64,000 nt of DNA from assembly GCA_028278545.1 (NCBI GenBank), contig JANQED010000151.1, forward strand, positions 35,146-99,145. The letters run 5' to 3'. The position numbers were made by a program, and so were the translations under genes. The stretch comes from Anaerolineales bacterium (GTDB lineage Bacteria; Chloroflexota; Anaerolineae; Anaerolineales; UBA11858). Shown here one piece after another: positions 50,910 to 55,719 of this stretch; the stretch's first letter is position 1, and every line of letters begins with the position of its first letter. Under the pieces are notes generated by a model. The model ran no database searches. It saw nothing but the letters and a program-made list of their open reading frames with translations, and was not told the DNA's origin.

Positions 50910-51425
50910 ATGTCCGATTTGTTTGAGAAAGTCACTGGTGACCAGGATGTTTTTAAGAGGATAGCCAGTAAAATCCCGGGTTTTAGTGGCTATGTCGAAC
51001 GGCAGAACCGACGCGCAGCGGACAAGTTGCTGCGCGAGACCCTGGCGGATCGATTCGAGGAGCTGTACCAACGCATTTCCGCAGTCCAGGCGGATTTCGT
51101 CAGTCAGGGCGATATTGCCTATGTCGATGACCTGGAGAAAGCTGCCCTTAAGGTGCGTACATTCATCGACAAAGTGCGCAGGGCATCTTATGGTTACTCT
51201 GGCTTCTTCGATGCTGTCAAGATTAATGAAGAAGAACTGGCCCGTGTCTATCAATACGATAGTGCCATGCTCGATTTTGCCGAAAGCGTGAACCGCGCTA
51301 TCGACAATGTCGAGGCTTCTGTAGATAGTGATGGACTCCCGGCCGCGATCCGCAATCTGGTGAGCACTGCGCAAGAATGTTTGGATGTTTTCAACCGCCG
51401 CGACGAGGTGATGACTCAAGGATGA
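50910..51425 (+). CDS. Hypothetical helical protein upstream of SPFH-HTH gene
   Basis: MSDLFEKVTGDQDVFKRIASKIPGFSGYVERQNRRAADKLLRETLADRFEELYQRISAVQADFV; SD GAGGAGG upstream. Confidence 0.7.
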   Translation: MSDLFEKVTGDQDVFKRIASKIPGFSGYVERQNRRAADKLLRETLADRFEELYQRISAVQADFVSQGDIAYVDDLEKAALKVRTFIDKVRRASYGYSGFFDAVKINEEELARVYQYDSAMLDFAESVNRAIDNVEASVDSDGLPAAIRNLVSTAQECLDVFNRRDEVMTQG

Positions 51426-51462
51426 AGACGCTAGATGGATATGAAAATTTGGAGGATGAGTA

Positions 51463-52509
51463 ATGGCTAGAATTTTCGATGTTATTGAATATGCAGATGA
51501 GATGCGTGATCGCCTCGTGCAACGTTTCCCTGAAAAAGGCTCTGGTGATTTCCGCATTGGTTCGCAGGTGATCGTGCGTGAGTCTCAATCGGCGGTTTTC
51601 TTCCGGGATGGGCAGGCCCTGGATGTCTTTGGCCCTGGCCGGCACACCATCGCGACGGCCAACATCCCCCGGCTGATCGACTTCATCGGCAAGGCCTTCG
51701 GCAACCGTACTCCCTTCACCGCTGAGGTCTATTACGTCTCCATGCGCGAGTTCGTCGATAAGAAATGGGGCACTCCCCAGCCGATCATTGTCCGCAACCC
51801 GGGGATGGGGCTGGGCGTCGCACTTTTACAGGGTTTTGGCACATACAGTTTCCAGGTCTCCGACCCGCAGCAATTCGTCACCCAAATTGTCGGCTCTCTC
51901 GGCGCTTATCGCACCAGCGAGATCGAGGATCGTCTGCGCGGCGTGTTGCTCTCCGATTTGACCGACCTGTTGGGAGAGACCGCCGCGGAACACAGCGTGG
52001 TTGACCTGATTGGCCTGGTCAACGAGATGAGCGCTGGCGTGCGCGCCAAAGCCCAGGATCATTTCAACTCCTTAGGGCTGACGCTGAAATCTTTTGTCAT
52101 TTCCAACCTCAAGCCCTCCGAGAAGTCCGCCGAGGAGCTGCGCAATATGGGAATGCTGGATATGAACACCTACACCCAGTTGCAGGCGGCTGATGCGATG
52201 CTGGCGGCTGCCGAAAATCCCAGCGGTGGCGCGGGCCTGACGGCTGGCATCGGTGCCGGTTTAGGGGTGGGCAACGTGCTTCAGCAGTCGCTGCAAGGCA
52301 TGACCGGTGCACAGGGCCAGCAGGCGGCAGCCGGAGCTCCCGCAGGTGGCATGCCTGAAGTGATGACCCCGGCGGAAGCAGCCGGCTTCCTCAAGGTCGC
52401 CGAGGAGGATGTCGTCGCGGCGATAGAGGCAGGCGATCTCAAAGCCAAGAAACTTGGCAGTGCCTACCGCATCAGCAAGAAGTCCCTGGAAGATTTCTTG
52501 AGCGGATAG
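51463..52509 (+). CDS. SPFH/band-7 domain protein (YdjI/virion-core-like) with C-terminal excisionase-type HTH
   Basis: SQSAVFFRDGQALDVFGPGRHTIATANIP...KKWGTPQPIIVRNPG...; C-terminal MTPAEAAGFLKVAEEDVVAAIEAGDLKAKKLGSAYRISKKSLEDFLSG. Confidence 0.85.
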   Translation: MARIFDVIEYADEMRDRLVQRFPEKGSGDFRIGSQVIVRESQSAVFFRDGQALDVFGPGRHTIATANIPRLIDFIGKAFGNRTPFTAEVYYVSMREFVDKKWGTPQPIIVRNPGMGLGVALLQGFGTYSFQVSDPQQFVTQIVGSLGAYRTSEIEDRLRGVLLSDLTDLLGETAAEHSVVDLIGLVNEMSAGVRAKAQDHFNSLGLTLKSFVISNLKPSEKSAEELRNMGMLDMNTYTQLQAADAMLAAAENPSGGAGLTAGIGAGLGVGNVLQQSLQGMTGAQGQQAAAGAPAGGMPEVMTPAEAAGFLKVAEEDVVAAIEAGDLKAKKLGSAYRISKKSLEDFLSG

Positions 52510-52537
52510 AATTTATTCAAAAGGGAAAGAAAAAGAT

Positions 52538-52575
52538 GGGTGCAACCAGCACGGCGCGTTGGTTGCACCCTTTTT
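52538..52575. terminator. Hairpin GGGTGCAACCA/TGGTTGCACCC + TTTTT between convergent genes
   Basis: Perfect 11-bp stem with T-run. Confidence 0.85.
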
Positions 52576-53273
52576 CATTGTTCCCCCAGCGCGTCTTTGA
52601 TAACTTGCACATCCGTTGCCGAGACGGGTTTTTCCTTGGCAACTTTGCGCAGATGATCCTTCAGCTTTTTGGCAGACAGGGTTGGCGTAGGGGCCTCATC
52701 GGCCTGTATGTCCACCTCGGGGTGGGTGAACACCAGGGCTGCCTCAATCGGGGGGACCGCGTAATCCTCAGGCAAAAGCTTCTTCAATTGGCGTCTCAGG
52801 GCATCTGTCTCTGAAGCGATCTCGAACTCTGGGCGTCCCAAGCCCTCTTGGGCGAAGAGGGCCAAATAAGCCCCCAGGATACCCCCGCCGCGTTTGCGCC
52901 AGCGCTTCCTGGTGTATTTGATCGTGCCGCGCTGGTGCTTGGGGATCAGCACCCACAGGCCCGCAGGCCCCACCAGCACATGGGAAGCGCGCGTAGTGTA
53001 GTGATACAGGCTGTATTGCTTGCCGAACCCTTTCAGGGCCGCGTCGATTTGTTGATCGGGGCGCGGGCTGCGTCCCCAGCGGTTGGTGTAGTAAATGCCC
53101 ATCTGCGAAAGGATGAAGCCCACCAACAATGCCGAGAGCGACAGGCCGATCTGTTCAGGCTGCCGGAAGGTGATGAACATGCCGGCCCCTAAAATGGCCA
53201 GGCTGACGATGCTGACTACCCTGCCAATCATCGCGTTGCGTTTGATCAGTTTCTCATTGCGGATGATATTCAT
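52575..53273 (-). CDS. Membrane protein with NERD-like (nuclease-related) domain
   Basis: Two TM segments, then DAALKGFGKQYSLYHYTTRASHVLVGPAGLWVLIPKHQRGTIKYTRKRWRKRGG. Confidence 0.65.
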   Translation of the reverse strand: MNIIRNEKLIKRNAMIGRVVSIVSLAILGAGMFITFRQPEQIGLSLSALLVGFILSQMGIYYTNRWGRSPRPDQQIDAALKGFGKQYSLYHYTTRASHVLVGPAGLWVLIPKHQRGTIKYTRKRWRKRGGGILGAYLALFAQEGLGRPEFEIASETDALRRQLKKLLPEDYAVPPIEAALVFTHPEVDIQADEAPTPTLSAKKLKDHLRKVAKEKPVSATDVQVIKDALGEQ

Positions 53274-53291
53274 TGATGTCTCCCAATCTGT

Positions 53292-53320
53292 GTAGAGACG
53301 CTCCGGCGGAGCGTCTCTAC
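53292..53320. repeat. 29-bp perfect palindrome, copy 2: GTAGAGACGCTCCGGCGGAGCGTCTCTAC
   Basis: Identical to 16367-16395; contains the TAG stop of fabF (53317-53319). Confidence 0.95.
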
Positions 53321-54564
53321 CCGTTATAACGTTTCAAAACCAGGCAGGCGTTCTGCCCGCCCAGGCCAAATGAGTTCGATAAGGCGATATCCACCTGGTG
53401 TGGACGCATTTGGTTGGGCACATAATCCAGGTCGCACTCGGGGTCGGGGTTTTCATAGTTGATCGTCGGGTGCAGGACGTTCTCCTGGATCGACATCACG
53501 CAGGCGATGGCCTCCAGCGTTCCTGAGGCACCCATGGCGTGCCCGATCATCGACTTGGTCGAGTTGACGGGGATCTGGTAAGCCCGCTCGCCGAACACCG
53601 TCTTGATGGCCTTGGTTTCGATAGCCCCGTTTAGTGGGGTGGACGATCCGTGAGCGTTGATGTAATCCACCTCTTCGGGCTGGACGCCGGCATTTGTGAG
53701 TGCCCAGCGCATGGTGCGGATGGCGCCTTCGCCCTCGGGGTGGGGTGCCGCGATATGAAATCCATCTGCCGAGGAGGCATGACCCAACACTTCCGCGTAG
53801 ATCTTCGCACCGCGGCTCAAGGCGTGATCAAGGCTTTCCAAGACCACTGCTCCAGCGCCCTCGGAGAAGACAAAGCCCTCCCGCTTGGCATCGAAAGGAC
53901 GCGAGGCCATTTCGGGTTGATCGTTGTAATTCACTGGCAGCGCTCGCATGGCTGAGAATCCGGCAATCGAGAAATCGCGCACCAGCGCCTCTGTCCCCCC
54001 CGAAATGACCACATCTGCCAGCCCCCGTCGGATGATCTCGGCGCCTTCGCCGATGGATTGGGTTCCTGTCGCGCAGGCGGTGGTGATGGTGGCGTTGGGG
54101 CCTAGGCATTGGAAGCGCAGGGCGATCAGGTGGGCCGATAAGTTGGGGATTCCGCCGGGCAGCACAAAGGGGCTGACTTTCTCCAGGCCCTTTGTTTTCA
54201 ATACTTCAATGCCATCTACAAAGCTGTCCAGGGCGCCGATGGCTGTGCCGAAGAATACACCTGTGCGTTCGGATTCGGGAATTGGCTCTGGCAGCCCGGC
54301 ATCTTCGACAGCTTGCGCGGCGGAGGCCAGGGCGATCTGGGCGGCGCGCGGTATGCGTCGGGCCAGCTTGCGGTCCATGAAATCCTTGGCGTCGAAATCG
54401 GGGATCTCTCCGGCGATCTGGCAGGGCATTTCGCTGGGATCGAACAAAGTGATGCGCCGGACGCCGGATTTTCCGGCCTGGAGGCCCTCCCAAAATTTCT
54501 TGATCGAACTGCCCAGGGGAGTGACTGCTCCCAGGCCGGTGATGACTACTCTGAGGCGGCTCAT
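53317..54564 (-). CDS. fabF: Beta-ketoacyl-ACP synthase II
   Basis: RVVITGLGAVTPLGSSIKKFWEGLQAGKSGVRRIT...ITTACATGTQSIGEGAEIIRRG...HGSSTPLNGAIETKAIKTVFG...NSFGLGGQNACLVLKRY. Confidence 0.96.
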   Translation of the reverse strand: MSRLRVVITGLGAVTPLGSSIKKFWEGLQAGKSGVRRITLFDPSEMPCQIAGEIPDFDAKDFMDRKLARRIPRAAQIALASAAQAVEDAGLPEPIPESERTGVFFGTAIGALDSFVDGIEVLKTKGLEKVSPFVLPGGIPNLSAHLIALRFQCLGPNATITTACATGTQSIGEGAEIIRRGLADVVISGGTEALVRDFSIAGFSAMRALPVNYNDQPEMASRPFDAKREGFVFSEGAGAVVLESLDHALSRGAKIYAEVLGHASSADGFHIAAPHPEGEGAIRTMRWALTNAGVQPEEVDYINAHGSSTPLNGAIETKAIKTVFGERAYQIPVNSTKSMIGHAMGASGTLEAIACVMSIQENVLHPTINYENPDPECDLDYVPNQMRPHQVDIALSNSFGLGGQNACLVLKRYNG

Positions 54565-55577
54565 GCCTGTTCGGTCTCCTTCGATTTCTTGAGCTGTTCC
54601 TGAATGGAATCGCGCAAGGCGTTTAGCAGGTCGGCTTCGACGGCTCTGCGGGCGCCTCGGATGGCGCTGACCAGGGCGCGGGCGTCCGAGCGGCCATGTC
54701 CGACGAAGATCAGCCCATTGATGCCCAACAGCGGCGCAGCGCCTACTTCGCCGGGGTCCATCAATTTCTTCACGCGGCCGAAAGCTGGCTTGGCCAGCAG
54801 TGCGCCGAGGCTGGTTACCGCGCCGCGGGTGAGTTCTGTGCGCAAAGTTTCGATGAGCAGTTTGGCAACGGCCTCGCTGGCCTTGACCAGCACATTGCCG
54901 GTGAAGCCGTCCGTGACCACCACATCGACTTCTCCACCGAAGACTTCTTTGCCCTCCACGTTGCCGATGAAATTGAAGTCCGCGGCTTCCATGATCGGGT
55001 AGGTCGCCTTGACTAGGTCGTTGCCCTTGCCAGCCTCCTCACCGTTGGACAGCAGCCCCACCCGTGGACTCTCCACCCCCAGCACTTTCTCGGCGTAGAT
55101 CGATCCCATGACAGCGAATTGTCGCAGATATTCGGGCTTGCACTCCGTATTCGCCCCGATGTCCAGTATCGCGCAAAACCCGCCTGAGACGGGCAGCATC
55201 ACGGTCAATGCCGGGCGTTTGACGCCCCGGATGCGCCCCAACCGGAAGAGGCCGTTGGCCATTGCGCCGCCGGTGTTCCCCGCGGTGACGAAGGCGTCCC
55301 CCTGACCAGTTTTGAGCAGGTCCATGCCGACGGCCATCGAGTTCAGGGCTTTGCCGCGCGCCGAACGGGCGGGCTTGTCTCCCATCTCCAAGACCTCGGG
55401 AGCGTGGATCAGCTTCACTTTATCCGACCCTCCCAGGGCTTCCAGGCGTGGTTTGATCTGCTCCTCGTGGCCCACCAGCAAGATCTGATCGCCAAATCGC
55501 CCTCCCGCTTCGACGGCAGCCTGGACTTCGGGGTCCGGGTAGTTGTCGCTGCCCATGGCGTCCAAAACGATGCGCAT
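54561..55577 (-). CDS. plsX: Phosphate acyltransferase PlsX
   Basis: MRIVLDAMGSDNYPDPEVQAAVEAG...GNTGGAMANGLFRLGRIRGVKRPAL...NGEEAGKGN; start set at 55577 because longer ORF overlaps the tRNA. Confidence 0.95.
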   Translation of the reverse strand: MRIVLDAMGSDNYPDPEVQAAVEAGGRFGDQILLVGHEEQIKPRLEALGGSDKVKLIHAPEVLEMGDKPARSARGKALNSMAVGMDLLKTGQGDAFVTAGNTGGAMANGLFRLGRIRGVKRPALTVMLPVSGGFCAILDIGANTECKPEYLRQFAVMGSIYAEKVLGVESPRVGLLSNGEEAGKGNDLVKATYPIMEAADFNFIGNVEGKEVFGGEVDVVVTDGFTGNVLVKASEAVAKLLIETLRTELTRGAVTSLGALLAKPAFGRVKKLMDPGEVGAAPLLGINGLIFVGHGRSDARALVSAIRGARRAVEADLLNALRDSIQEQLKKSKETEQA

Positions 55578-55636
55578 TATTCTCTCCTTATTTTTCTTGA
55601 CAATTACAACCCCCTGATTATAATACGGATACTCAG

Positions 55637-55719
55637 GCGCTGGTGCTGGAACTGGCAGACAGGCGTGGTTGAGGGCCACGTGCCCCTAGGGCGTGCGGGT
55701 TCGACCCCCGCCCAGCGCA
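55637..55719 (+). tRNA. tRNA-Leu (anticodon GAG)
   Basis: Acceptor GCGCTGG/CCAGCGC, anticodon arm CGTGG TTGAGGG CCACG, long variable arm, T-loop GGGTTCGACCCCC. Confidence 0.95.

Follow-up and report, generated by a model that had tools for sequence, protein, structure and literature searches.

An SPFH protein of Anaerolineales ends in a winged helix-turn-helix with an altered recognition helix and is encoded with a conserved helical companion

The window analysed here is a 64,000-nucleotide stretch of DNA from a metagenome-assembled genome of Anaerolineales (Chloroflexota) that is 85% complete. Three open reading frames were confirmed at the coordinates given by an initial annotation made from the letters alone: one for a helical protein, one for an SPFH protein and a third that faces them. 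The first two lie on the same strand, 37 bases apart, and a good ribosome-binding site precedes each start, GGAGGAAAAAATG for the helical gene and GGAGGATGAGTAATG for the SPFH gene (Table 1). The third (52575-53273), a TM/NERD-like gene, shares the minus strand with plsX and fabF across 52575-55679.

Table 1 Features of the helical and SPFH genes, in window coordinates.
Feature	Coordinates	Strand	Basis
All-helical partner protein, 171 aa, LIMLP_15305-like (NF047596)	50910..51425	+	Profile match, model, adjacency, co-occurrence with SPFH gene
SPFH protein with C-terminal winged HTH, 348 aa	51463..52509	+	Pfam domains, orthologues, AlphaFold2
SPFH/Band_7_1 domain, residues 20-226	51520..52140	+	PF13421 E 6.7e-49; Foldseek to stomatin/prohibitin
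Gly/Ala-rich segment, then variable flexible linker, residues 253-297	52219..52353	+	pLDDT <50; conservation 94% (253-270) and 45% (271-297)
HTH_17/excisionase-type winged HTH, residues 300-347	52360..52503	+	PF12728 E 1.5e-8; TIGR01764 over cut-off; pLDDT ~90; Xis 4j2n
Degenerate recognition helix, residues 314-322, EEDVVAAIE	52402..52428	+	BldC side-chain contact positions replaced; charge -3.2

The proposed fusion of an SPFH domain to a helix-turn-helix (HTH) is real, as Pfam, NCBIfam, AlphaFold2 and Foldseek all support it. PF13421 matches the SPFH protein with 166.8 bits against a gathering score of 24, and a domain search of the C-terminus recognised HTH_17 by profile above the Pfam curated cut-off, as well as the excise model TIGR01764 above that of NCBIfam. 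Read directly from the sequence, the N-terminus (MARIFDVIEYADEMRD) is polar and an N-terminal transmembrane anchor is absent. The AlphaFold2 model (38 orthologues) displays a stomatin/prohibitin-like body, a disordered stretch at residues 254-295 and a confident terminal winged HTH, in which mean pLDDT is about 90 and the elements follow the order helix-helix-strand-strand-helix. Foldseek matched the body to stomatin/prohibitin with E down to 1.4e-9, and superposed the HTH on the Xis of phage Pukovnik (4j2n; TM-score 0.80 by target, 1.3 Å, 34% identity). Searches of PDB sequences with the SPFH protein or with its HTH alone gave no match, whilst a profile search of the PDB revealed Xis, at E 0.029, as the sole plausible match.

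In an alignment of 36 orthologues, columns are conserved on average to 84% in the SPFH domain, 78% in the HTH and 45% in the adjoining linker, and the contrast between HTH and linker argues that the HTH is under selection. To judge from this alignment and the model, a folded, conserved domain lying past a divergent linker is no chance match. SPFH orthologues were found in 88 of 101 related genomes and in 60 of the 63 good ones, mostly as single copies and mostly at 60-95% identity; the SPFH-HTH gene is almost universal in Anaerolineales.

The helical gene had been put forward as a conserved companion of the SPFH gene, and both adjacency and co-occurrence bear this out. It is present in 87 of the same 101 relatives, with 86 genomes holding both genes, 12 neither and 3 discordant (Fisher 1e-12); in the discordant genomes (G009, G038 and G016) the gene sits at a contig end and the missing gene would be expected off the contig. 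As adjacent genes drop out together in fragmented assemblies, the informative cases are families f11 and f15; in f11 the two genes are unlinked and both are retained in 8/8 sampled genomes. Among 80 loci examined, the helical gene lies upstream on the same strand in all 53 that hold both genes, across a gap of 34-237 bases (median 59). Outside the order, 14 genomes in a 201-genome sample of the phylum have a clear SPFH orthologue and 10 of these carry the helical gene, as do 2 of about 170 others. All seven genomes of family f15 (G034, G047, G059, G071, G081, G089 and G096) are without both genes, which is one loss event. Genome G005 (isolate NIOZ-UU35) carries two complete helical plus SPFH-HTH pairs (L003 and L005), each adjoining a NERD-like gene, with SPFH proteins 84-90% identical to that of the window.

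All 34 members of the helical family match NF047596, a profile named after LIMLP_15305 of Leptospira (best E 6.6e-18). The match extends over most of the window's protein and scores 54.9 bits, far under the equivalog cut-off of 210, and on this score the protein belongs to a related family and is not an equivalog. In the literature, LIMLP_15305 of Leptospira was found only as a table entry beside a non-coding RNA. The window's protein is modelled with confidence (pLDDT 89) as a bundle of helices, for which no PDB fold matched below E 1e-3. Similarity to TelA, sought because TelA adjoins an SPFH-GYF gene in Paracoccus, was not found, and a plasmid match for the window's helical protein (P0001) to a Listeria record, at E 8e-3, is probably due to chance. 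Two divergent family members (L196 1821-2342 and L197 1954-2457) have no detectable SPFH gene nearby; a DUF1015-like gene lies downstream of each.

In the BldC-DNA structure, K26 and R30 touch bases and T27, T29, K33 and W31 touch phosphates, and an R30A change essentially abolishes binding (PMC5859096). The alignment of the SPFH HTHs with helix 2 of BldC is free of gaps; at the contact positions, assigned by this alignment rather than from a complex, K26 is replaced by E in 35/38 SPFH proteins, T27 by D or E in 38/38, T29 by I/L/V/M in 37/38, R30 by A/S/T/G in 38/38 and W31 by A or S in 38/38, with K33 variable. In the window's own protein, K26, T27, R30 and W31 have become E, D, A and A. Among the SPFH HTHs, L230 departs in part from the pattern, having Q at position 30 and L at position 31. 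Helix 2 of the SPFH HTHs carries a net charge of -3.15 (range -5 to -2), compared with a mean of +0.64 (0 to 3, no overlap) in 25 other HTH_17 domains of the same order, a control chosen mostly by best Pfam scores and biased to canonical domains. A second control, 22 stand-alone HTHs chosen from those nearest to the SPFH HTH in similarity, gave the same answer, with a mean of +1.32 (lowest -3), T or S at position 27 in 20/22 and a polar or basic residue at position 30 in 19/22. The wing has a mean charge of +3.4, similar to DNA binders, and the equivalents of R41 and R48 are K and R in 38/38 SPFH proteins, with A and Y in place of H46 and R47. Along the former DNA face, residues 314-316 now make a conserved acidic rim and residues 318-320 a hydrophobic/alanine strip, and by its residues this altered helix face looks more like a protein interface.

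In SPFH relatives from other Chloroflexota families, the Gly/Ala linker is the same but leads into another module: zinc ribbons, one to three in number (L132, L136, L137, L141 and L182-L194), a bihelical tail weakly similar to GvpG (L131 and L133-L135) or a longer helical tail (L139 and L140). A SHOCT label considered for the L131-type tail was unconfirmed by Pfam, the weak GvpG match being the sole one. In SPFH proteins encoded on plasmids of Vibrio, Paracoccus and Bacteroides, the same position is taken by GYF_2 (E 1e-17 to 1e-19). The helical gene accompanies the HTH, zinc-ribbon, bihelical and helical-tail versions alike, so its product probably contacts the common SPFH/coil part and not the HTH. 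In a tree of SPFH domains, HTH-bearing proteins fall on three separate branches: one is the Anaerolineales clade, another is L130, which groups with a zinc-ribbon protein (support 94), and the third is L142, which groups with a different zinc-ribbon protein (support 77). The deeper nodes of this tree are weak and the L130 genome is 8% contaminated, so any number of transfers read from the tree is provisional. A fourth HTH-bearing group comprises L229 and L230. By searching 301 Chloroflexota genomes with a profile of the variant HTH, we obtained 29 strong matches (>80 bits; the next scored 49), every one of them on a full-length SPFH protein. Within this sample the variant HTH is specific to SPFH proteins.

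Taken together, we consider it reasonably probable, judging from sequence features, that the window encodes a YdjI-type cytosolic SPFH scaffold whose degenerate winged HTH acts as a protein-binding adaptor, with the helical protein as partner. Such a scaffold would assemble near the membrane and, by means of its flexible Gly/Ala linker, would display a winged HTH that may no longer read DNA and would instead dock a protein, as relatives would use zinc ribbons or GYF_2. The helical protein would work with the SPFH protein, most likely at the SPFH/coil part, and the pair may serve in membrane maintenance. Oligomerisation and membrane proximity are expected from knowledge of the SPFH family and from YdjI, whilst protein binding by the HTH and the membrane-maintenance role are predicted from the sequences. 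The last of the options first offered for the HTH, that of a protein-binding module, is thus the one that the sequences favour; neither tethering of DNA nor relaying of membrane stress to transcription is supported, since acidic and small side chains have taken the place of the recognition-helix contacts.

The chief alternative, which we regard as unlikely, is that the wing binds DNA with the help of avidity. Membrane-bound SPFH oligomers would here present many weak copies of the winged HTH, linking nucleoid and membrane mainly through the basic wing; the fold matches Xis, the wing K and R are strictly conserved and SPFH oligomers, from what is known of the family, would supply the avidity. 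Against such a tether, helix 2 is acidic and devoid of side-chain contacts to bases and phosphates, the charge of the whole HTH domain averages -1.2 compared with +3.0 in the controls, and in related proteins the place of the HTH is filled by zinc ribbons or GYF_2. Next, and likewise improbable in our view, the HTH could be a structural cap that aids SPFH assembly or self-association and has no foreign partner. HTH_17/BldC domains are capable of head-to-tail packing (PMC5859096), and this, together with the restriction of the variant to SPFH proteins in the genomes sampled, would fit a cap; the disordered, variable linker of 27-45 residues between HTH and body, and the replacement of the HTH by unrelated folds in close relatives, speak against it.

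The surroundings of the gene bear on two further readings. Apart from the helical gene, the neighbours named from their sequences are housekeeping genes that depend on the lineage (sucCD, XdhC-like, fabF/plsX), which argues against a local regulatory target. A relay in which the protein, once released from the membrane, would act on promoters as a transcription factor is very improbable: the HTH_17 and excise models do match above cut-off, and PSP systems elsewhere link sensors at the membrane with HTH regulators (PMC11237479), but the recognition helix is lost and no conserved target operon was seen among these varying neighbours. The label NERD-like for the gene at 52575-53273 is weak, as PF08378 scores 17.0 bits against a gathering score of 22.1 (E 0.0085); within its family, E-values of 0.1 or lower against NERD were reached by 8 of the 15 members, the best being 2.5e-4. 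This gene is convergent to the SPFH gene in 17 of the 80 loci, is confined to some families and, across most of the order, is not present around the SPFH gene; it is found mostly with plsX and/or fabF, also away from the SPFH gene (L018, L036, L052 and L054). It is a neighbour, not a partner, and its staying with plsX/fabF suggests a role near fatty-acid or membrane-lipid synthesis. Of the three genes surveyed for co-occurrence, the helical and SPFH genes are kept together and the NERD-like gene falls outside the unit, and a conserved three-gene unit is thereby refuted. Nucleic-acid defence by SPFH, helical and NERD-like proteins together, for which the convergent adjacency and the weak NERD score could be cited, is scarcely credible given that most of the order has no NERD-like gene near the SPFH gene and that, where present, it usually keeps to plsX or fabF.

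If the degenerate HTH is indeed a protein-binding adaptor on an SPFH scaffold, a broader scenario can be offered, tentatively: HTH_17 may have been converted once from a DNA reader to a dedicated protein-docking module, in which acidic residues would rim an exposed hydrophobic strip of the former recognition helix, and then moved between SPFH lineages, and with its helical partner it may form a PspA-independent membrane-maintenance system core to Anaerolineales, the helical protein being the obvious candidate for one component. The locus is a new and well-conserved combination of known parts; in the portion of the open-licence PMC literature searched, a fusion of SPFH to an excisionase or helix-turn-helix domain is undescribed. 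SPFH proteins are general membrane organisers, and the partners of their C-terminal modules are largely uncharted. Here the slot holds a fold whose DNA-binding surface is very well understood and has been rebuilt, which makes residues 314-322 a handle on the function of the module and lets a proposed switch of function be tested in a familiar fold. The helical and SPFH genes, moreover, form an uncharacterised core pair in a large order that has received little study and is mostly without PspA.

Among known systems, YdjI of Bacillus subtilis, encoded in the pspA-ydjGHI operon, assembles at the membrane, carries a C-terminal zinc finger and is needed, with YdjG/H, to localise PspA (PMC8581546). 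The window's protein resembles it in having no transmembrane anchor, a low-complexity segment, a small C-terminal module and partners encoded alongside (PMC8581546), but ends in a degenerate winged HTH rather than a zinc finger, and the protein encoded next to it is helical and was not recognised as PspA, with no operon shared with pspA and ydjGH. PspA was not found in the window's own genome (85% complete), and PspA/IM30 (PF04012) went undetected in 56 of 61 related Anaerolineales genomes, though a YdjI-type SPFH protein is nearly universal there; the client is therefore likely to be usually other than PspA. SPFH-GYF_2 proteins of Pseudomonadota and Bacteroidota (Vibrio, Paracoccus and Bacteroides plasmids) share the Band_7_1 domain, the Gly/Ala linker and a C-terminal domain of about 50 residues in the same slot; they differ in that this domain is GYF_2 and not a winged HTH, and in that their neighbours include a zinc-ribbon protein and, in Paracoccus, TelA, but not the helical protein. 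GYF_2 is a protein-interaction domain. With BldC, excisionase (Xis) and HTH_17 the window's HTH shares the fold, most scaffold residues and the basic residues of the wing, but it has acidic, hydrophobic or alanine residues at the DNA contacts of the recognition helix. RodZ is a transmembrane protein with an N-terminal HTH of an unrelated subfamily. By analogy only, the HTH of this membrane-associated bacterial scaffold binds a protein, MreB (PMC3599482).
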